This document shows positions 30 to 13,329 of a DNA stretch of 64,000 bases, piece by piece (within the stretch, counting starts at the first letter, position 1; each line of letters starts with the position of its first letter). This DNA is from Maribacter polysaccharolyticus. Lineage in GTDB: Bacteria > Bacteroidota > Bacteroidia > Flavobacteriales > Flavobacteriaceae. Location of the stretch: assembly GCF_028882255.1 (NCBI RefSeq), contig NZ_JARBUY010000001.1, positions 836,344 through 900,343 of the forward strand, read 5' to 3'. A program made the translations under genes and the position numbers. Under the pieces are notes generated by a model. The model was given only the letters and a program-made list of their open reading frames with translations, made no database searches and was not told where the DNA came from.

Positions 30-83
30 GGTCTCGACTGCGCTCGACCTGACAAACCTCGACTGCGCTCGACCTGATAAACC
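30..83. repeat. Two-unit copy of the GC-rich 25-bp repeat
   Basis: Two tandem units built on the core GGTCTCGACTGCGCTCGACC (first unit at 30-49), followed by the same linker bases as in the large repeat island at 10182-12147. It lies just downstream of the minus-strand gene ending at 149. The 81-bp spacer of the large island is not recognisable next to it. It shows that the family is dispersed and not confined to one locus. Confidence 0.85.
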
Positions 84-3202: not shown

Positions 3203-6200
3203 TTAGTAGTTAATGAATATCCAGCCCTCCTGTGGTGCAGTACCATTGTTCAGGTCGATGATGTAATAGTAGGATCCCGTTGGTACCTTCTCACTGTTGT
3301 TCCTGTAAATGGCACTCCAGTCGTTCTGGTAACCTTTCTCCGAGAATACCTCGTGGCCCCATCGGTTAAAGACTTTTACAATGGCATTGGAATAATTTTC
3401 AATACCCTCGATATACCAGGTATCGTTGATTCCGTCACCGTTGGGGGTGAATGCCTGGGATATTTTCACCGCATTTACTTCAACCTCATCAATATCGCCT
3501 CCAGAGGTATCACCATCCGTAGACCCATCTCCGTCAACTTCTTTTTGACTATCGGAACAACCGTTGGCATCCACGGTTTCTCCGGCAGGGGTATCGGCAC
3601 ATTGATCCACATCGTTCGTAACACCGTCAGCATCGTCATCTTTCTGACTGGCCGCACAGCCTTCTTCATCTACAGCTTCATCTTCTGGGGAATCCGGGCA
3701 TTGGTCTTCGGCATCGTTTACTCCGTCGAAATCCGAATCTTTTTGACTCTCAGAGCAGCCTTCTGCATCTACCGTTTCCCCTGTTGGGGTAGCTGGACAC
3801 ATATCCATTGCATCGCTCACACCATCACCATCATCATCGGTATCGGCATTATCCCCCGTACCGTCACCATCGGTATCGGTATCCTCGTTTGCATCCAATG
3901 GGAAGGCATCTTCGGTATCCAAGGTGCCGTCATTATCGTCATCGGTGTCGGCATTGTTTCCTGTACCATCATTATCGGTGTCGGTATCTTCGTTTTCATC
4001 CAATGGGAAAGCATCTTCCGAATCCGGGGTGCCATCACCATCACTATCTTTCTGGCTATCGGAACAGCCTTCTGCATCTACCGTTTCGCCAGCTGGGGTA
4101 TCTGGACACATATCCAGGGTATCGCTGATACCATCACCATCGGTATCGGCATCTTTTTGGCTATCGGAACAACCATTGGCATCTACGGTTTCCCCAGCAG
4201 GGGTATCTGCACAGTTGTCCAAATCATCTGACACACCGTCTTCATCTGAATCAACATTGTCGCAATTTAGACCGAAATCGTCAATGGTCCAACCGTAGGT
4301 ATCGATAATTTTTTGGCGAGCAGTTGCTCCTTCACAATAACTGTTAGAAGCAATAAAGGTTACATCATTTTGCAGGGTCAAATCACTCCAACCAATTAAG
4401 ATCTTATCGTAATTGGCGGTCGAAATACCTGAAAGTCTTAACATAGAGGTCATATCGGTCACATTACTTACATTCCATTTACTTAGATCATTATTAAAAA
4501 CCAAAGCACCATCGAACATATAGTACATATTAGTAACATTGCTCACATCCCAATCGCTAATATCTTGGTTAAATGCCGATGCCCCGGCAAACATTAGAGT
4601 CATATCGGTCACACTGCTTACATTCCAATTACTTAAATCATTATTAAAAACCCTAGCCCAATAGAACATATCGTGCATACTAGTAACATTGCCCACATCC
4701 CAATCGCTAATATCTTGATTAAAAGCTGTGGCACCACTAAACATCCCCGTCATGTCAGTCACATTGCTCACATTCCACTTCCCGATATCTTGGTTAAAAG
4801 CTATGGCAAGAGCAAACATCCCCGTCATGTCAGTCACATTGTTCACATCCCAGTCCCCGATATCTTGGTTAAAATTTGAATTATAGAACATATACGACAT
4901 GTCGGTTACATTGCTCACATCCCAACCACTGATATCTTGGTTAAATGCAGTTGTATTAGAAAACATGTTGCTCATATTCGTTACCTCAGAAAGATTAGGT
5001 ACATCAACCGCATTGATTACCACATTATTGCAACTTTCAAAACTTTTTTCCATAGATTGCCATACTTGGTCTCCCCATTGCTCAACGGATAATAATTTAG
5101 CCCTATAAAAAGTAGTCAATTGAAAATGCGGAAAAACCCCGCTGATACGTACGGTATAGGTACCTGCTGTACTATATTGATGCCTGGCATAGTCGGTATA
5201 AACGGTATTATCAGTTGATCCGTCTCCCCAGTCTACCGTATAACTATAGGTATAATCTGAATTTGTAGGGATGGTTATTGATTCATTTGCAGCATCGGTT
5301 TTCCAAGTGGTAATAAAGGGTATGCTGGGGCAATCCTCACCAGCATCGGTAATCGTCCAACCATAGGTGTCGATTAAATCTTGCCGTGCTGTTGCTCCTT
5401 CACAATAGGTACTATTACCACCATGAAAATTAATGTTTGATGGTATTTGGATTTCCCCTGCAACTGTATCCAAAGTGTTCCAGCCAATTAAAGTATTATC
5501 ATAATTCTCTTGCGATAACGCGACTCCATACAACATAGCAGACATATCGGTTACATTGCTTACATCCCAACTACCTATATCTTGGTTAAATGCAGTTGAA
5601 TAAACGAACATTTCCGACATGTCGGTCACATTGCTTACATCCCAATCCCCGATATCTTGGTTAAATGCAGTTGCATTGTAAAACATATAGGACATAGTGG
5701 TTACGCTACTTACGTTCCAACTTCTGATGTCTTGATTAAAAGCTGTTGCATTATTAAACATCGATGACATATCGGTTACATTGCCTACATCCCAACTACC
5801 TATATCTTGGTTAAATGCAGTTTCATTAACGAACATTTTCGACATATTAGTCACATTGCTTACATCCCAATCACCGATATAGAAATTAAATTCTCTAGCG
5901 GAGAAGAACATCAACTCCATATTGTTCACATTACTTACATCCCAACCACTAATATCTTGGTTAAAAGACACAGCAGCATAGAACATACCTGCCATATTAC
6001 TAACTGCGGCAACATTCCAATTGCTTATATCTTGGTTAAAGGAATATGCCCTTCCGAATATATAACTCATGTCCGTAACGTTACTCACATTCCAATTACC
6101 AATATCTGAGTTGAAGTCATAAACTTCGTAGAACATAAAAGACATATCGGTAACCAAAGAAAGATCTGGTACATCGGTAGCATTGATAACAAGATTCTCA

Positions 6201-9200
6201 CATCCGTAAAATGCTCTCTCCATAGAACCCCATTGTTGGGAGCCCCATTGTTCTACGGTAAATATTTTTTTATTATCACCTGAATCTGGAAATTTTAAAT
6301 GCGGAAAATCCCCGCTGATGCTTACCGTATAGGTGCCTGCTGTTGTATAGGTATGGGTGGCATGGCCTGTATAGATTGTGTTGTCTGTTATACCATCGCC
6401 CCAATCTACTGTGTAGGCAAAGGTGCCATCACCGGTGGGTATGGTAATTTGATTGTCGTTTGATGACCCTTCATTATCCGTTTTCCAAGTGGTGATAAAA
6501 GGCAAGAAGGGGCAATCCTCTCCGTCATCGGTAATAGACCACCCATAGGTGTCAATTAAATCTTGCCGTGCTGTTGCTGCTTCACAATAATTGCTTTGTC
6601 TTGCCGTAAATACGATGCCTGTTGGTATTTGTGTTTCCCCGGCAGCTGTATCCAAAGTATTCCAGCCTATTAAGGTGTTGTCATAATTTGCCATTGACAT
6701 ACTTGTATCGTCGAAGAAATACTCCATATCCGTTACATTACTTATATCCCAACTTCCTAAATTTTGGTCGAAATTCGATGCTGCTTCGAATATGCTGTAC
6801 ATGTTACTCACATTACTCACATCCCAATTACTGATGTCTTGATTAAAAGATGATGCCCGAAAAAACATTAGATTCATATCGGTCACACTGCTCACATTCC
6901 AACTGCTGATATCTTGATTAAACGATGTGGCAAAATAGAACATATGCCCCATTTTGGTCACATTGCTAACATTCCAGTTGCTTATATCACTATTAAAAGA
7001 ACCGGCATAAGCAAACATTCTTCCCATATCTGTCACCAAAGATAAATCTGGGGTGTCTTCTGCATTAATGGTTAGGTTAGTACACCCGCTAAAGCTATAA
7101 TACATACTCAACCATGTCTGGTCTCCCCATTGTTCTACGGTAAGTATTTTTTTATTATCCCCTGAATCTGGAAATTTTAAATGCGGAAAATCCCCGCTGA
7201 TGCTTACCGTGTAGGTGCCTTCAGCTGCATAGGTATGGGTGGCATCACCCGTATATACTGCAGTATCGGTTGTCCCATCGCCCCAATCCACCGTATAGGC
7301 AAAGGTGCCATCACCGGTGGGTATGGTAATTTGATCGTCGTTTGATGACCCTTCATTATTGGTTTTCCAAGTGGTGACGAAGGCAGTTTCAGAACAATCC
7401 TTGCCCCCATCGGTAATCGTCCACCCATAGGTGTCAATTAAAGATTGTCTTGCTGATGCTCCAGCACAATAAGTGCTATTACCGCCATTGAATGTAATAT
7501 TTGGTGGTATTTGTGTTTCCCCTGCAGCGGTATCCAAAGTACTCCAGCCAATTAGGGTGTTGTCGTAATTTGCCGTGGAAAGCTGGGAGTCAGAAAACAT
7601 ATCAAACATTTCGGTTGTGTTACTTATATCCCAACTGCCTAGGTTTTGGTCAAAATTAGTTGCTAAGGCGAACATAGCACTCATATTAGTAACATTTGCT
7701 ACCTTATTTCCCCAATTTCCAATGGGTTGGTTAAATTTTCCTGCATATGCGAACATACCATACATATTAGTAACACTGCTCACATCCCAGGCACTTATGT
7801 CTTGGTTGAAATTACTTCCAAGTAAGAACATAGCACTCATATCAGTAACGTTTGCTACCTTATCTCCCCAATTTCCTATAGGTTGGTTAAAATTTTCTGC
7901 TCCTATGAACATACCATACATATTAGTAACACTGCTCACATCCCAAGAGCCAATATCCTTATTAAATGCTGTTGCGCCCAAAAACATTTCGGACATATCA
8001 GTAACATTTCCTACTTTATTGCCCCAATTTCCAATAGGTTGGTTAAAGTTTTCTGCTTCTCTAAACATAAGATTCATATTGGTAACATTACTTACATCCC
8101 AACTGCTTATGTCGCCGTTAAAAAGGGTTGCGTCAGAAAACATATTAGACATATTCGTAACACTGCTCACATCCCAAGAGTTAATATCTTGATTAAAGGA
8201 CGAAGCGATAAAAAACATCCCGTACATGTTAGTAACATTTCCTACTTTATTGCCCCAATTTCCGATCGGTTGATTAAAATTAGTTGCATTTCTAAACATT
8301 TCTTGCATATTAGTAACACTACTTACATCCCAACCACTGATATCGCCATTAAAAATAGATGCACCTTGGAACATTTTTTCCATATTTGTTACATTGCCTA
8401 CATCCCAACTGCTTATGTCGGCGTTAAAGGATCGTGCCGATCGAAATGCCGAAGACATATCTGTAACACCCGAAATATTGGGTGTATCTGTAGCATTAAT
8501 AGTTAAATTAGTACAACCGAAAAAACTAGATTTCATACTTTCCCATTCTTGCGATCCCCACTGATTAACAGTTATTATTTTTCCAATATCATAGGAGTTG
8601 TTAAAATAAATTTGTGGAAAAGCACCGGTAATAGCTACTTCATAAGTGCCAGCTACCTCATAATTGTGAGTAATATTTCCAGAGATATTGGTGTCATCTA
8701 TTATACCATCGTTTTCCCAATCTATATTGTAGCTGTAAGTATATTCACTATTTGTAGGTATCATTATTGAAGTATCGGATGAGGTTCCATAATTATCCGT
8801 TTTCCAAGTGGTGATAAAAGGTTTAGAACAATCCTTGCCCATATCGTTAAACGTCCACCTATATTGGTCCATTAATTCTTGTCTTGCCTCTTCTCCTCCG
8901 CAATACGTACTAGTGGAGGCTTCAAAACCAATATCTGTTGGTATTTTTGTTTCCCCGGCGGCGGTATCCAAAGTACTCCACCCAATTAGGGTGTCATCGT
9001 AATTGGCCGTGGAAAGTTTGGCGCCGTTAAACATACCGTACATAAGAGTAGCACTACTTATGTCCCAGCCGCCTAGATTTTGATCAAAAGCTGTTGCATG
9101 AAAAAACATAACCTGAAATTGGGATACCTTACCTACATTCCAATTACCGATATCCTGGTTAAAAGCCGCAGCCTCTTGGAACATATACCTCATATTCGTA

Positions 9201-9760
9201 ACATTGCCCACATCCCAGGAACCAATATCCTGATTGAAATTTTCTGCACCATAAAACATTGCCGACATATTGGTTACATTAGAAACATCCCAACCACTTA
9301 TGTCTCCATTAATTGCAGTTACATTATAGAACATTCCAGACATATTGGTAACCAAAGAAAGATCCGGCGCATCTGTGGCATTATATTCCAAATTATCACA
9401 GTCTTTAAAAATTTCCTCCATACTCTTCCATTGCTGGGTGCCCCATTGTTCCACAGATACCAATTCATTTTCAGACATCAACTTAATATGTGGAAAAGTA
9501 CCGGAAATGGTTACGGTAAATTCCCCGTGGTTATCATAACTATGAAATGCATCACCGGTGTACTCCGTATTATCTATAGAACCATCTCCCCAATCTACCG
9601 TATAGGCATAAGTATAATCAGAAGGACTGGTACCGATTTCTATTGACATGTCATCTTCACTCGTTTCCAAATTGAAAATAAATTCATCTTGTGCCTGTGA
9701 AATTCCGAAGCTCAATAAAGCTATAAGGAAAAGTAGGGGGTGTGTAAATTTCTTTTTCAT
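3203..9760 (-). CDS. Giant BspA-like (DUF285) surface protein with T9SS type B sorting domain
   Basis: A 2185-residue exported protein: signal peptide (1-23, ending SQAQ) and five large modules (about 24-313, 313-792, 792-1087, 1087-1483, 1483-1833). Each module begins with a PKD-like segment (DWGDG, or DWEND in module 2), continues with tandem DUF285 repeats of the type MFxxAxxFNQDIxxWDVSNVT, and closes with LIGWxxL plus an ARQxLIDxYGW cap. Thrombospondin type-3-like calcium repeats (DxDxDG runs with CPDTPAGE) follow at about 1833-2095. The last ~90 residues carry AFTPNGDGINDTW and a C-terminal beta-sandwich typical of type B T9SS cargo. It should be displayed on or released from the cell surface, probably for adhesion. 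The PorP/SprF gene directly downstream fits this. The ATG at 9760 was chosen for its signal peptide. Near-identical DNA repeats make the module count prone to change or mis-assembly. Confidence 0.92.
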   Translation of the reverse strand: MKKKFTHPLLFLIALLSFGISQAQDEFIFNLETSEDDMSIEIGTSPSDYTYAYTVDWGDGSIDNTEYTGDAFHSYDNHGEFTVTISGTFPHIKLMSENELVSVEQWGTQQWKSMEEIFKDCDNLEYNATDAPDLSLVTNMSGMFYNVTAINGDISGWDVSNVTNMSAMFYGAENFNQDIGSWDVGNVTNMRYMFQEAAAFNQDIGNWNVGKVSQFQVMFFHATAFDQNLGGWDISSATLMYGMFNGAKLSTANYDDTLIGWSTLDTAAGETKIPTDIGFEASTSTYCGGEEARQELMDQYRWTFNDMGKDCSKPFITTWKTDNYGTSSDTSIMIPTNSEYTYSYNIDWENDGIIDDTNISGNITHNYEVAGTYEVAITGAFPQIYFNNSYDIGKIITVNQWGSQEWESMKSSFFGCTNLTINATDTPNISGVTDMSSAFRSARSFNADISSWDVGNVTNMEKMFQGASIFNGDISGWDVSSVTNMQEMFRNATNFNQPIGNWGNKVGNVTNMYGMFFIASSFNQDINSWDVSSVTNMSNMFSDATLFNGDISSWDVSNVTNMNLMFREAENFNQPIGNWGNKVGNVTDMSEMFLGATAFNKDIGSWDVSSVTNMYGMFIGAENFNQPIGNWGDKVANVTDMSAMFLLGSNFNQDISAWDVSSVTNMYGMFAYAGKFNQPIGNWGNKVANVTNMSAMFALATNFDQNLGSWDISNTTEMFDMFSDSQLSTANYDNTLIGWSTLDTAAGETQIPPNITFNGGNSTYCAGASARQSLIDTYGWTITDGGKDCSETAFVTTWKTNNEGSSNDDQITIPTGDGTFAYTVDWGDGTTDTAVYTGDATHTYAAEGTYTVSISGDFPHLKFPDSGDNKKILTVEQWGDQTWLSMYYSFSGCTNLTINAEDTPDLSLVTDMGRMFAYAGSFNSDISNWNVSNVTKMGHMFYFATSFNQDISSWNVSSVTDMNLMFFRASSFNQDISNWDVSNVSNMYSIFEAASNFDQNLGSWDISNVTDMEYFFDDTSMSMANYDNTLIGWNTLDTAAGETQIPTGIVFTARQSNYCEAATARQDLIDTYGWSITDDGEDCPFLPFITTWKTDNEGSSNDNQITIPTGDGTFAYTVDWGDGITDNTIYTGHATHTYTTAGTYTVSISGDFPHLKFPDSGDNKKIFTVEQWGSQQWGSMERAFYGCENLVINATDVPDLSLVTDMSFMFYEVYDFNSDIGNWNVSNVTDMSYIFGRAYSFNQDISNWNVAAVSNMAGMFYAAVSFNQDISGWDVSNVNNMELMFFSAREFNFYIGDWDVSNVTNMSKMFVNETAFNQDIGSWDVGNVTDMSSMFNNATAFNQDIRSWNVSSVTTMSYMFYNATAFNQDIGDWDVSNVTDMSEMFVYSTAFNQDIGSWDVSNVTDMSAMLYGVALSQENYDNTLIGWNTLDTVAGEIQIPSNINFHGGNSTYCEGATARQDLIDTYGWTITDAGEDCPSIPFITTWKTDAANESITIPTNSDYTYSYTVDWGDGSTDNTVYTDYARHQYSTAGTYTVRISGVFPHFQLTTFYRAKLLSVEQWGDQVWQSMEKSFESCNNVVINAVDVPNLSEVTNMSNMFSNTTAFNQDISGWDVSNVTDMSYMFYNSNFNQDIGDWDVNNVTDMTGMFALAIAFNQDIGKWNVSNVTDMTGMFSGATAFNQDISDWDVGNVTSMHDMFYWARVFNNDLSNWNVSSVTDMTLMFAGASAFNQDISDWDVSNVTNMYYMFDGALVFNNDLSKWNVSNVTDMTSMLRLSGISTANYDKILIGWSDLTLQNDVTFIASNSYCEGATARQKIIDTYGWTIDDFGLNCDNVDSDEDGVSDDLDNCADTPAGETVDANGCSDSQKDADTDGDGISDTLDMCPDTPAGETVDAEGCSDSQKDSDGDGTPDSEDAFPLDENEDTDTDNDGTGNNADTDDDNDGTLDTEDAFPLDANEDTDTDGDGTGDNADTDDDGDGVSDAMDMCPATPTGETVDAEGCSESQKDSDFDGVNDAEDQCPDSPEDEAVDEEGCAASQKDDDADGVTNDVDQCADTPAGETVDANGCSDSQKEVDGDGSTDGDTSGGDIDEVEVNAVKISQAFTPNGDGINDTWYIEGIENYSNAIVKVFNRWGHEVFSEKGYQNDWSAIYRNNSEKVPTGSYYYIIDLNNGTAPQEGWIFINY

Positions 9761-10181
9761 AAATGATTTAATTGGTTGTTTTGTTATTGGTGTATGGCGC
9801 CCATAATTTAAGTAGGAAAACGCTGATACTTTTTTGATGTGTAAAGAACGGAGCATAAAAGAGAATAATATATATGGGAGTTGGCCAATATGTGCCTACA
9901 TCCGATTCGGACCCAAAAACCAACCTATAAAAGAAAAGTAAAGAAAGAGGTTTCTTACAATTCAAAACATTGTAAACAAGTAATTTAAATGCTATTATAA
10001 CCACTTGTAAAAAGAGTTTTACTTTAATAAGGCCTAGTGTTAAATAGTAATCCGTAAATAGGTGTCCAAATCGTATTTGGACACATAAATGGGGGCATGA
10101 GCGTCAAAAACGGACAGGTTAACAGGTTTTTTACACTCAAGAGTCCGTAGGTCTTGGTGATAATTTTATTAATTGGACTAT
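9761..10181. other. Gene-free leader and edge of the repeat island
   Basis: No convincing gene. This is the upstream region of the giant surface-protein gene, so its promoter should lie here, but I could not find a clear Bacteroidetes-type TAnnTTTG box on the minus strand. The only structured element is the hairpin at 10062-10084. Confidence 0.5.
10062..10084. repeat. Perfect 10-bp inverted repeat with 3-nt loop
   Basis: GTGTCCAAAT and ATTTGGACAC are exact reverse complements separated by CGT. It lies between the surface-protein gene and the start of the repeat island. There is no T-run on either side, so it is not a standard intrinsic terminator. It could be a protein-binding palindrome or a boundary of the repeat island; its function is unknown. 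Confidence 0.6.
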
Positions 10182-10929
10182 GAGGTCTCGACTGCGCTCG
10201 ACCTGACATACCCCAACTGCGCTCGACCTGACATACCTCCTCGATTGCAATCGACCGGACATACCTCGACTGGGATACTTGATTAGCAGTATTCCTAAAA
10301 AATATTGATTGGTGACCCTGTACGGTCAAGAGAAATGGATATCATACCGATGAGGTCTCGACTGCGCTCGACCTGACATACCGCGACTGCGATCGACCTG
10401 ACATACCTTGACTGCGCTCGACCTGACATACCGCGACTGCGATCGACCGGACAATCCTCGAGTGCGCTCGACCAGACAAACCCCAACTGGAATATTTGAT
10501 TAGCAGAATTCCTGAAAAATATTGATTGGTGACCCGGCCCGGTCAGTAGAAATGAATATTATACTATTGAGGTCTCGACTGCGCTCGACCTGACATACCC
10601 CAACTGCGCTCGACCTGACAAACCTCGACTGCGCTCGACCTGAAAAACCCCGACTGGGATACTTGATTAACAGAATTCCTATAAAATATTGATTGGTGAC
10701 CCTGTACGGTCAGTAGAAATGAATATCATACCGATGAGGTCTCGACTGCGCTCGACCTGACAAACCTCGACTGCGCTCGACCTGACATACCATGACTGCG
10801 CTCGACCTGAAAAACCCCGACTGGGATACTTGATTAGCAGTATTCCGGAAAAATATTGATTGGTGACCCGGCCCGGTCAAGAGAAATGAATATCATACCG
10901 ATGAGGTCTCGACTGCGCTCGACCAGACA
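10182..10929. repeat. Left repeat array: 25-bp GC-rich units alternating with 81-bp spacers
   Basis: Blocks of tandem units (core GGTCTCGACTGCGCTCGACC, period 25 bp, linker TGACATACC or TGACAAACC) alternate with an AT-richer spacer beginning TGGGATACTTGATTA. Spacer copies lie at 10271-10351, 10488-10568, 10655-10735 and 10822-10902, each exactly 81 bp. The blocks between spacers are 136, 86 and 86 bp, which equals 11 + 25n with n = 5, 3 and 3; the first block is 89 bp and has a 3-bp insertion. Each spacer carries a short palindrome-like core of one of two types, GACCCTGTACGGTC (type A) or GACCCGGCCCGGTC (type B), in the order A, B, A, B. Open frames through the array are repeat translations, not genes. 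Confidence 0.9.
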
Positions 10930-11049
10930 GACCCAAAGCAAGCGCACCTTGACAAACAGCAACCTCTTTTAAATTACAATCGCTATATCAGCTTTGGTTT
11001 TTATGCTTTAAAAGTCTTATTATTTCTATAAATGATTAAATTACATCCA

Positions 11050-11076
11050 TGTCCGGTCGAGCGCAGTCGAGACCTC
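11050..11076 (-). repeat. Inverted single copy of the GC-rich unit (1)
   Basis: A 27-bp exact reverse complement of the array unit (variant with CCGGACA at its end), alone between two stretches of unrelated AT-rich DNA. It is the first of three inverted copies spaced about 95-120 bp apart that lead up to the GIY-YIG gene. Confidence 0.9.
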
Positions 11077-11144
11077 CTTTTGATTACCTAAAGCCAGAAA
11101 CTTGGACTGCATTCATAGTCCTAAAAGTACCATTTTCACACCCC

Positions 11145-11171
11145 TGTCCGGTCGAGCGCAGTCGAGACCTC
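11145..11171 (-). repeat. Inverted single copy of the GC-rich unit (2)
   Basis: Identical over 27 bp to the inverted copy at 11050-11076. The intervening and following DNA (about 70-95 bp each) differs between the copies, so these are separate insertions or remnants and not a tandem duplication. Confidence 0.9.
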
Positions 11172-11266
11172 CTCTTTGGTTTGCCTTAACCAAAAAAACC
11201 TCGATTACCATTCGTTCACAGTCCATAATTATTGGTATATGATTAATAATCATTAACTAATAAATC

Positions 11267-11657
11267 TGTCCGGTCGAACGCAGTCGAGACCTTTTCACGG
11301 CCAACCTTATGAAACGCTATTACGTATACATACTTCTTTGTTCCGACGGGTTAACCTATACCGGTATCACGAATGATGTGGCAAGAAGATTCCACGAACA
11401 CCAAATGGGATTGAACAAAAATTGTTTTACATTTAAAAGGAGACCAGTGGAATTGATCTTTGAACAAGAATTCAATGACGTTGTACAAGCCATTTACTTT
11501 GAAAAAAAGTTGAAAAAATGGAGTGGAAAAAAGAAATTGGCCCTTGCTAACGGCCAATTCGACCTTCTCCAAATCTTAGCGGAATGCAGGAATGCCTCAC
11601 ATTCCGATTATAATCCGGAGAAAGGCAATTGAGGTCTCGACTGCGCTCGACCTGACA
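11267..11657 (+). mobile_element. Candidate minimal mobile element: GIY-YIG gene between inverted repeat units
   Basis: The GIY-YIG gene (11309-11632) is framed by an inverted unit at 11267-11292 (one internal change, GAACG for GAGCG) and a direct unit at 11631-11657, giving near-perfect terminal inverted repeats of about 26 bp around a 391-bp segment. The stop codon TGA of the gene uses the first two bases of the right-hand unit. No target-site duplication could be confirmed because the right side runs directly into the array. The structure resembles a one-gene insertion element, or a REP-like element with its dedicated nuclease. Mobility is inferred, not shown. Confidence 0.5.
11309..11632 (+). 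CDS. GIY-YIG superfamily endonuclease embedded in the repeat island
   Basis: A 107-residue single-domain GIY-YIG nuclease (UPF0213/YhbQ-like size). The family motifs appear as VYI (6-8) and YTG (17-19), followed by ARRFHEHQ (25-32) with the conserved Arg and His, and a metal-binding Glu in YFEKKLKKW (63-71). The C-terminal tail after residue 90 (AECRNASHSD) lies outside the core fold. It is the only plus-strand gene I can support in the window and has its own short leader. Identical GC-rich repeat units stand inverted immediately upstream and direct immediately downstream, and its stop codon is formed with the downstream unit. The family includes DNA repair and homing nucleases and many small proteins of unknown role; a link to repeat spread is inferred from position only. 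Confidence 0.9.
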   Translation: MKRYYVYILLCSDGLTYTGITNDVARRFHEHQMGLNKNCFTFKRRPVELIFEQEFNDVVQAIYFEKKLKKWSGKKKLALANGQFDLLQILAECRNASHSDYNPEKGN

Positions 11658-12147
11658 AACATCGACTGGGATACTTGATTAACAGAATTCCTAAAAAAAT
11701 ATTAATTGGTGACCCTGTACGGTCAGTAGAAATGAATATCATACCGATGAGGTCTCGACTGCGCTCGACCTGACATACCTCGACTGCGCTCGACCTGACA
11801 TACCCCGAATAAGATACTTGATTAGCAGTATTCCTATAAAATATTGATTGGTGACCCGGCCCGGTCAGTAGAAATGGATATTATACTATTGAGGTCTCGA
11901 CTGCGCTCGACCTGACAAACATCGACTGCGCTCGACCGGACAATCCTCGAGTGCGCTCGACCTGACAAACATCGACTGGGATACTTGATTAACAGAATTC
12001 CTAAAAAAATATTAATTGGTGACCCTGTACGGTCAGTAGAAATGGATATCATACCGATGAGGTCTCGACTGCGCTCGACCTGACAAACCTCGACTGCGCT
12101 CGAACTGACAAACCCCGACTGCGCTCGACCTGACATACCTCGACTGC
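11631..12147. repeat. Right repeat array
   Basis: Same architecture and orientation as the left array. Spacer copies lie at 11667-11748, 11810-11890 and 11977-12058 (82, 81 and 82 bp), with central cores in the order A, B, A. The unit blocks are 36, 61 and 86 bp (11 + 25n with n = 1, 2, 3), and the final block of 89 bp ends in a partial unit next to the AraC-type gene. Spacers 11667 and 11977 are nearly identical, pointing to recent duplication or gene conversion. The array runs into the 3' end of the minus-strand regulator gene at 12178. Confidence 0.9.
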
Positions 12148-12177
12148 ATTTATTACCTAAAGGAAAAGAAAGGGCTT

Positions 12178-13329
12178 TTACCGACTATTAGAACTAAATT
12201 CGGTAACGTTCATAGAGGTAATCTTTTTAAACGTCTTACTGAAAGAACTTCTATTGGCAAAACCACATTGCTGTGCAAGGGCCTCCATCGTATTCCTATC
12301 CAAATATCCAAGGGCAATTAGTGTCTTTCCTTTTTCGATACGCACATTGTTCCTATAGGCCGAAAAACTGAGCCCTAATTGCTGATTAAGGAAATAGGAT
12401 AAATGATGTGTGGGAATTTCCAATGCCTTGGCACAACTGGTCAAATCAAAATCCTGTTCAAAAAACGAACCTCTTTCTTTTATTGTATCCAACTGGTTCA
12501 TTAATCCGCCAACATCCAACCCAAACTTCAATTCTTCTTCTTCCTTCGTAGGAGTTGTTAGCGTTGTATTGCTTTTTTTGCTCCTAGGATACCCATACAA
12601 AATTGAAGGAAAATATATGGGCATAACCCCTATGGCAAATAGCACCAAATAGAAGACAAAATTAACCTTATGTAGAATTGGTGCCGTCGAACGCAAGAAA
12701 TCAACTTCCAACAATTTTTCGAATGCGAAGATCGATGCCAATATCGACATTAAAACAAATAGGACATATAAAGAAACCACCCATGTAATCAACTTACGAT
12801 CCTTTTCCTTGATTAGGCTTCGAAGAAAATCCAACAATAAGGGTAAAAGGCTGATCAATGCTAAAAACTGCCACAGAAAGCGCATTGCATAATGTTGGTT
12901 TATATTTAAAAACCCGTATCTCACCTTTAATCTATCCGCCGGTTTTAAGTATGCGTTTGAGACAATGGCATCATACACCTCTTGCGGTTTGGCATAAACA
13001 TTCAAAACATCAACAAAACCGATTATAAAGGGCACAAATACCAGTAAATACCTCCAACGCCAAACAAATTCATCTTTGATCAAGGTTAGAAAATAAAAAA
13101 ATATAGGTACGGATATTAAATTATACAAGGGCAATGGCCATACATAAAACCAACTGTATTCTACAAGTAAACCGCTTTCAATAACGTAGGTTTGAAGGGC
13201 ATATATGGAAAATATGGCGTAAAAAGACCCTAAGAAAATGGTAGAATATCTGTTCGCGGATCTTCTTGCAAACAATGAAATTGCCAATACCATTCCGAAA
13301 ACAGCAATAATTAAGAAAAGGTTTTGCAA
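12178..13329 (-). CDS. Membrane-anchored AraC-family transcriptional regulator
   Basis: A 383-residue protein with about seven predicted membrane helices in the first ~245 residues and a C-terminal AraC/XylS-type DNA-binding domain (about 285-380). The last helix-turn-helix reads EALAQQCGFANRSSFSKTFKK. The layout is that of Bacteroidetes regulators whose membrane part senses a signal and whose cytoplasmic HTH acts on nearby genes. It is encoded 400 bp downstream of the last PUL gene and on the same strand, so it is a candidate local regulator, although most PULs use HTCS or ECF/anti-sigma systems. The start is TTG (an in-frame stop lies a short way upstream with no ATG between); the alternative ATG at 13293 would cut into the first membrane helix. 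Confidence 0.85.
   Translation of the reverse strand: MQNLFLIIAVFGMVLAISLFARRSANRYSTIFLGSFYAIFSIYALQTYVIESGLLVEYSWFYVWPLPLYNLISVPIFFYFLTLIKDEFVWRWRYLLVFVPFIIGFVDVLNVYAKPQEVYDAIVSNAYLKPADRLKVRYGFLNINQHYAMRFLWQFLALISLLPLLLDFLRSLIKEKDRKLITWVVSLYVLFVLMSILASIFAFEKLLEVDFLRSTAPILHKVNFVFYLVLFAIGVMPIYFPSILYGYPRSKKSNTTLTTPTKEEEELKFGLDVGGLMNQLDTIKERGSFFEQDFDLTSCAKALEIPTHHLSYFLNQQLGLSFSAYRNNVRIEKGKTLIALGYLDRNTMEALAQQCGFANRSSFSKTFKKITSMNVTEFSSNSR

Follow-up and report, generated by a model that had tools for sequence, protein, structure and literature searches.

The window analysed here, a stretch of 64,000 nucleotides from the Maribacter polysaccharolyticus genome, carries a small gene of the GIY-YIG nuclease family that is bracketed by hairpin repeats (Table 1). 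The two bracketing units are inverted with respect to each other and are 92% complementary over 26 nt, and the stop codon of the nuclease gene (TGA, 11630-11632) runs into the start of the right-hand unit; the bracket of 26-27-bp inverted units and the completion of the stop codon by the repeat were therefore as the original prediction had described them. The single inverted copies that it had placed upstream of the gene were likewise recovered, as was the recurrence of the repeat near the beginning of the window. Allowing up to 3 mismatches, CTCGACTGCGCTCGACC was found at 29 places in the window (0.01 expected; maximum of 1 in 100 shuffles), 27 of them in 10187-12130 (24 on the + strand and 3 on the - strand) and 2 in 33-74. 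The claim that the copies around the gene are dispersed stood in part: the 27 copies are there, but those flanking the gene are largely tandem arrays, with 25-bp units inside 142-217-bp units, and not independent dispersed insertions. The exact 14-mer core, TCGACTGCGCTCGA, occurs 29 times in the whole genome (18 in the window and 11 outside), compared to 0 occurrences of the backward pattern. Six outlying repeat sites inspected in the same genome all lie between long ORFs, and Rfam gave zero matches in 9800-12400. Adjoining the repeat array, on the - strand (3203-9856), is a 2217-aa ORF made of many similar repeats, with a C-terminus that resembles the tails of secreted or gliding-related proteins; a similar ORF starts beside the nuclease module in G205 and G207.

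Table 1. Features of the nuclease locus and its repeats (window coordinates).
Feature	Position	Strand	Remarks
Tandem doublet	30-83	+	repeat as at the nuclease gene, 10 kb off
Left tandem repeat array	10182-10930	+	25-bp units within 167-217 bp units
Single inverted repeat copy	11050-11076	-	
Single inverted repeat copy	11145-11171	-	
Left bracketing hairpin repeat	11267-11292	-	tag TGTC facing outward
GIY-YIG nuclease gene	11309-11632	+	intact ORF, 107 aa; Pfam GIY-YIG (PF01541), E = 3.3e-17
Right bracketing hairpin repeat	11631-11657	+	tail TGACA facing outward
Right tandem repeat array	11632-12147	+	25-bp units within 142- and 168-bp units

PF01541 was the sole Pfam family matching the 107-aa protein at E ≤ 0.001, and the residues invariant across a 20-row alignment include Y7, Y17, R27, H31, E65, and N95, which we take to be the expected GIY-YIG catalytic positions. 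AlphaFold from the single sequence gave a useless model (pLDDT 45), and a 31-row alignment was used instead (pLDDT 87.7). A Foldseek search with the latter model returned two UPF0213 structures alone at E ≤ 0.001 (4e-5 and 8e-5); weaker matches were to Slx1 (0.007-0.06), a structure-selective GIY-YIG relative, and to the UvrC N-domain (0.8). The UPF0213 proteins BH0048 and EF2693 are the nearest solved structures in both sequence and fold. We know of no function for UPF0213 proteins, and the homologue yazA of Bacillus subtilis (plasmid record), unlike the window gene, has no bracketing repeats. GIY-YIG enzymes cut hydrolytically, and the modelled fold together with the conserved catalytic residues supports the prediction of a hydrolytic nuclease. 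Across three pairings of the window-gene orthologues of the own genome (G000), G205, and G207, dN/dS was 0.07-0.20, a sign of purifying selection; the window module is kept for the function of its protein. PADLOC, PHROGs, and NCBIfam assigned no family to the 107-aa protein at the limits used, and among 390 pattern matches on viral contigs 2 weak relatives of the nuclease were present.

A collection with one genome per species (84,980 genomes) yielded at least 590 matching stretches, at least 296 of which encode a relative of the nuclease, and we fetched the best 80 of these (53-82% identity), a choice that favours close relatives. Comparison of the 180 bp upstream with the 210 bp downstream was possible at 79 loci, one flank being too short, and in 58 of the 79 (from the best 80 of at least 296) the inverted flanks scored above the 99th percentile (26) of 1580 random positions from the same loci. 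Among the same best 80 of at least 296 loci, the loop pattern TCGAC-N2-3-GCTC was present in 77 (262 instances, compared to 4 for the backward control), its density fell from 5.8-6.0 per kb in the 200 bp next to the gene to 0.02-0.05 per kb at more than 2 kb, and in 46 loci the nearest copy on either side had its tail facing outward, compared to 4 loci with both tails inward. Among the remaining 30, some had same-strand copies and some had no copy within 200 bp on one or both sides. Omitting pairs that span the gene, neighbouring copies within 150 bp of each other in the 80 loci formed 24 outward, 32 inward, and 26 same-strand pairs; the outward doublets were tightly spaced (20 of 24 with a gap of 23-40 bp) and the inward ones broadly (23-117 bp). 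Gene neighbourhoods fell into 24 synteny groups among the 70 of the best 80 loci with enough flanking sequence, the largest comprising 12 loci, which points to movement over long times and vertical keeping over shorter ones.

The sequence of these hairpins reveals what is conserved in them. In the 262 instances (from the best 80 of at least 296 loci), arm pairs 1 to 4 were Watson-Crick in 95.8, 97.3, 96.6, and 83.2%, compared to 48.6, 48.1, 31.9, and 37.0% after the partners were reshuffled; counting the 185 distinct instances from the same loci, pairing was 94.1, 96.8, 95.7, and 78.4%. The arms took forms as different as GGTC/GACC, GGCT/AGCC, CACT/AGTG, CCTC/GAGG, CGTC/GACG, and CCCC/GGGG. 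Arms that vary freely and yet stay complementary suggest that their bases are not read one by one and that a folded single strand or a cruciform is what is recognised. The arm was a perfect 4-5 bp in 203 of 262 instances and encloses a 12-nt loop, each position of the tail (T)GACA was conserved in 79-96% of instances (G 91%, A 96%, C 93%, and A 89% of 262), and the consensus contains no T-run. As isolated DNA 26-mers the repeats folded at -1.9 to -2.9 kcal/mol, no better than shuffles (z -0.34 to 0.65), so that protein, supercoiling, or a replication fork may be needed for folding. By eye, longer hairpins were also seen beside the gene at four loci (L019, L020, L022, and L032), in which the loop is seemingly swapped for a palindromic piece (GAGCATTATC...), which points to nested or composite repeat forms.

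We added 20 loci of more distant relatives, and a second hairpin class emerged. The flanks of 14 were of class B, 2 of class A1, 2 of class A2 (TCGAC-NN-GCTC), and 2 showed neither pattern; 10 of the 20 had been chosen for genomes poor in class-A cores, which biases this count and leaves the within-genome comparison below unaffected. Class B reads ARM-TCGATAC-[variable inner stem]-CACTC-ARM'-TGAC(A/G), the TGAC being followed by A in 23 of 48 and by G in 17 of 48. Its arm pairs 3 and 4 were 96% paired, compared to 76% and 49% after shuffling, while pairs 1 and 2 hardly vary and are for that reason uninformative; the inner part can pair with itself (mean stem 6.25 against 3.3 shuffled). No locus of 132 had A and B together. 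A nuclease tree was built by a quick method from 84 of the 132 rows, omitting 48 class-A1 rows (25 drawn at random were kept, together with chosen rows). With 8 unclassed rows set aside, A against B took 1 change on this tree and A1, A2, and B together 4, a clustering matched by 0 of 500 shuffles; treating the unclassed rows as a group of their own gave 8 changes for A1, 3 for B, and 3 for A2, compared to shuffled means of 23.6, 13.1, and 4.9. The protein is short and 48 of the 81 inner branches are unresolved, and the A/B division, a single split on a poorly resolved tree, counts as one event and not as many. Stronger than this tree-based evidence is the control within genomes. Six genomes (G171, G068, G006, G054, G061, and G175) contain 24-35 class-A cores, yet their clade-B gene is flanked (~250 bp) by class B only. 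The same six have no close class-A gene (best matches 7e-25 to 2e-22), which on this criterion makes orphans of their class-A copies. Hairpin class thus follows nuclease clade.

Across the family, the gene and the repeat occur together, a point that the original prediction had proposed to check. We drew 199 genomes of Flavobacteriaceae and counted sites with the pattern YTCGACTNCGCTCR, which replaced TCGACTGCGCTCGA because the loop base varies and the first pattern undercounted the repeats. At least one site was found in 129 of the 199 genomes. All 34 genomes with the gene at E ≤ 1e-30 had at least 5 sites (median 30.5), compared to 46 of the 165 without it (median 1; Fisher p = 1.8e-16), a group that includes the six clade-B genomes; with the gene limit at 1e-20, the figures were 51 of 61 and 29 of 138. 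Restricting the comparison to the 156 genomes with a size of at least ~2.5 Mb left the association in place (p = 1.1e-12). Repeat-rich genomes without the gene, which the original prediction had named as contrary evidence, do exist to some extent: 10 of the 199 had 10-51 sites and zero gene matches at E ≤ 1e-6. These ten suggest that the repeats can outlive the gene or persist without it.

Three intergenic sites compared among 12 genomes of the genus displayed filled, decayed, and empty states. At L134 (C15:401964), next to a gene that we take to be tex, G206 has an intact 107-aa gene in an inverted-repeat bracket, and G203 has one full-length and three partial gene copies among many repeats (L168, G203:C5), as if the module itself had been tandemly amplified and had then decayed. 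G201 carries a frameshifted copy, G205 a partial one (residues 44-107), and the own genome a remnant (residues 82-107, 73% identity, E = 6e-9) with one repeat; the G207 sequence resembles this remnant without containing the exact core. In G032, G204, and G208 just 8 bp separate the flanking matches, an empty site from which the repeat is absent too, while two genomes gave no match and G200 no clear reading. The L132 site, presumably between ilvB and ilvN, has an outward doublet of exact cores in G203 and G205, one exact core with a decayed partner in G000, and a decayed doublet in G207; no exact core was found there in G208, G199, G206, G032, G204, G201, or G202, and G200 had no match. The third site (C15:468.4k) has an outward doublet common to G000 and G205, amplified in G203 and represented by one core in G202, with no cores in G207, G206, G208, G200, G201, or G032 and no match in G199 and G204. 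In place of the G000 doublet, G207 carries another hairpin-like sequence (GATCGCTTCACTGCGTTCGCGATGAC; L154, ~1300-1505), possibly a further repeat family of the same grammar.

Besides the L134 remnant, the own genome holds one more decayed copy of the gene. This second copy (C16:202.1-202.5k) is frameshifted and has the same bracket; it separates cas1 from cas2 in a type II CRISPR locus (L138, G000:C16:199000-205500) that runs cas9, cas1, decayed module, cas2, and an array with ~46-bp repeats. The proposal in the original prediction to look for empty sites as against conserved synteny had a divided outcome. Empty sites exist at L134, but the window's own site shows conserved synteny: synteny of the module is preserved in G205 and G207, the only two among 59 other genomes searched that have the neighbouring AraC gene (E ≤ 1e-60), and no empty site was found at this locus in these two congeners. 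Other small GIY-YIG ORFs of the same genome lie at apparent tRNA 3′ ends (L010 and L011, G000:C14:684981-685557; L014, C15:504528). On C14 a GIY-YIG gene, a tRNA-like 3′ end, and a terminator-like stem appear by eye to be duplicated in tandem, which may represent a further mode of spread.

Bracketed GIY-YIG genes were also found on plasmids beyond Bacteroidota. A plasmid search returned 1 record for the window protein and 14 for a Sphingomonas homologue, that record included. Inverted flanks were detected in 4 of the 6 loci fetched from these 14 (scores 35, 72, 104, and 36), and the S. paeninsulae and B. subtilis yazA loci, both with a score of 17, had no bracketing repeats; here the downstream stretch included the last 60 bases of the gene and some gene ends were estimated, so that these scores cannot be compared exactly with those of the 79 loci. 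The loop TCGACTTCGCTC, as in class A, occurs with a GAACG tail on both strands upstream of the GIY-YIG gene of a Sphingomonas parapaucimobilis plasmid and recurs inside the 3′ end of that gene. On two Methylobacterium plasmids the repeat flanking the GIY-YIG gene is a different long palindrome, and on a Planktothrix plasmid it is of the TGTCATTCTGAG type. In the Planktothrix agardhii plasmid locus (L204) the gene, which has TGTC-type inverted repeats, is neighboured by an MmeI-like restriction gene on one side and by drmA (DISARM) on the other.

A comparable pairing of enzyme and repeat may already be on record. Chenal and colleagues (Nat Commun, 2025) reportedly described Ssn, GIY-YIG site-specific single-stranded DNA nucleases with a target repeat, in Neisseria and with many homologues elsewhere; in Neisseria the enzyme is said to have a role in transformation and the repeat to be present in hundreds of copies. 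The likeness covers the small GIY-YIG protein, its intact catalytic residues, and a cognate repeat in many genomic copies, and the window nuclease perhaps represents a Bacteroidota branch of the Ssn family. A GIY-YIG family with its target repeat, reportedly published in 2025, weighs against the word "undescribed" in the original prediction. If Ssn is as reported, the present analysis adds evidence on anatomy, hairpin recognition, and mobility. Our literature search for GIY-YIG enzymes tied to REP-type repeats found nothing relevant, and a search by the letters of the loop returned papers that were, judged by title, unrelated.

Too strong as well in the light of an older catalogue, the word "undescribed" overlooks that (T/C)GTC-tagged REPs were listed in 2013, Bacteroidetes included (PMC3733652). 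Di Nocera et al. 2013 (PMC3733652) separate GTAG REPs, which have a RAYT, from CGTC REPs "apparently lacking a dedicated transposase"; the latter, often TGTC, occur in five phyla including Bacteroidetes, form predominantly HH dimers, and include the dRS3 repeat of Neisseria, and G. forsetii is named as CGTC-positive. The terminal CGTC/TGTC tag is matched by the window-type repeat. The stems of the CGTC families are 8-9 bp long and begin with A-T pairs, their loops measure 4-5 nt, and most of their tails are CCA, whereas class A combines a stem of 4-5 bp with a loop of 12 nt; because of these stem and loop sizes we did not file class A in the four families described there. HH (outward) dimers predominate in the catalogue; our 80 loci had a mixture of outward, inward, and same-strand pairs, with the outward ones tightly spaced. 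The REPIN/RAYT logic of short palindromes in inverted doublets, with enzyme genes flanked by repeats, is set out in PMC3116915. RAYT/REPIN systems (PMC3116915, PMC3733652) and the present one share inverted doublets, a bracketed enzyme gene, clusters, repeat-specific enzyme genes, and a single-strand hairpin logic. They differ in the enzyme, a Y1/HUH tyrosine transposase there and a hydrolytic GIY-YIG protein (PF01541) here, and in the tag, GTAG there and TGTC/CGTC (TGACA/TGACG on the other strand) here. The parallel with RAYT and REP drawn in the original prediction is well supported by the recurrence of the bracket in relatives and the presence of inverted doublets, and it gains further from the clade-matched repeat classes, the filled and empty sites, and the purifying selection.

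We regard it as probable, with moderate confidence, that the gene encodes a dedicated GIY-YIG nuclease whose DNA target is the bracketing [T/C]GTC-tagged REP-type repeat, in an arrangement like that of RAYT and REP but hydrolytic. The repeat would fold in single-stranded DNA, whether at a replication fork, in an extruded cruciform, or on an incoming transforming strand, as ARM-loop-ARM′, with the constant loop TCGACTNCGCTC and the constant 3′ tail TGACA. The enzyme may read the loop, the tail, and the fact of pairing, and not the arm sequence, and would cut next to the TGACA tail. Two outward copies would then give each strand one tail site at its 3′ end, and cutting at the tails would free or mark both 3′ ends of the unit, which could be either the bracketed module with its gene or a short inverted doublet without it. 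Since GIY-YIG cutting is hydrolytic, rejoining must come from host repair, and copying by repair would be the simplest route for a hydrolytic enzyme to spread such a unit. The break would be repaired by copying from, or recombining with, other repeat units; such repair could carry single copies and doublets, and now and then the gene, to intergenic positions, and arrays could grow and shrink. Counting against this reading are the repeat-bearing genomes without the gene, the weak folding, the synteny at the window's own site, the vertical keeping of several neighbourhoods, the excess of inward over outward doublets, and the single A/B split.

Other readings of the same evidence have to be weighed against a nuclease dedicated to spreading its repeat. 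The enzyme could instead guard or modulate natural transformation in the manner of Ssn, cutting incoming single strands at repeats that mark sites of limited uptake or directed recombination, with repeat spread as a by-product. This reading fits the reported Neisseria work and the purifying selection on the gene, and the dRS3 repeat of Neisseria is classed as a CGTC REP (PMC3733652); we nevertheless judge it unlikely as a full account, since alone it leaves unexplained the outward bracket (both sides in 46 of the best 80 of at least 296 loci), the decayed copies, and the growth of arrays. A homing-type selfish gene, which would cut gene-free repeats and be copied into them by repair, the repeats being homing sites with no partner role, is in keeping with a gene inserted between two repeat halves, with the decayed copies found at two other positions in G000, and with 24 neighbourhoods among 70 loci (from the best 80 of at least 296). 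Copy number, however, is dominated by repeats and not genes, short doublets are tightly spaced as if units of their own, and the empty site lacks the repeat itself, and we find homing rather improbable.

If the repeats were moved by a RAYT or another Y1 (HUH) transposase encoded at a different locus, the GIY-YIG gene would be a passenger. Y1_Tnp was found in 73 of the 199 genomes and showed a weak association with the repeat (39 of 73 against 41 of 126, p = 0.004), but in the 156 genomes of ~2.5 Mb or more it vanished (p = 0.33) while that of the GIY-YIG gene stayed (p = 1.1e-12). No Y1 match was present in 17 of the 34 genomes with a close GIY-YIG gene, just 2 of the 10 orphan-repeat genomes had one, the own genome has a single weak match (E = 2e-6), and it is the GIY-YIG clade that hairpin class tracks, which makes this explanation very unlikely. 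On the Y1_Tnp association data we reject RAYT as the driver of the repeats. Scarcely credible is the notion that the nuclease gene is unrelated to the repeats and that these are ordinary intergenic hairpins such as terminators or mRNA ends: the six outlying repeat sites inspected in G000 do lie between long ORFs, and hairpins can act in RNA, but the ~100- to 300-fold density peak at the gene (best 80 of at least 296 loci), the clade-matched class, the outward bias, the consensus without a T-run, and the lack of an Rfam match in 9800-12400 all speak against it.

If the gene is indeed a nuclease dedicated to its repeat, GIY-YIG enzymes may tentatively be proposed, at somewhat short of even confidence, as a second and independently evolved enzyme class for REP-type repeats, one that would read lineage-specific hairpins by structure, loop, and tail and disperse them by cut-and-repair and not by HUH strand transfer. 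The proposal would account for the enzyme-less [T/C]GTC REPs and would extend, through the same loop, to Bacteroidota and at least one alphaproteobacterium. A nuclease bracketed by TGTC/CGTC hairpins makes the question of the enzyme-less CGTC REPs of 2013 testable with one small protein and oligonucleotides. The varying but mostly complementary arms show through natural variation alone that pairing is kept, separating recognition of structure from recognition of sequence. For the family, the proposal would give an enzyme-side explanation for the repeats of many Flavobacteriaceae (129 of 199 genomes), including the interruption that separates cas1 from cas2.
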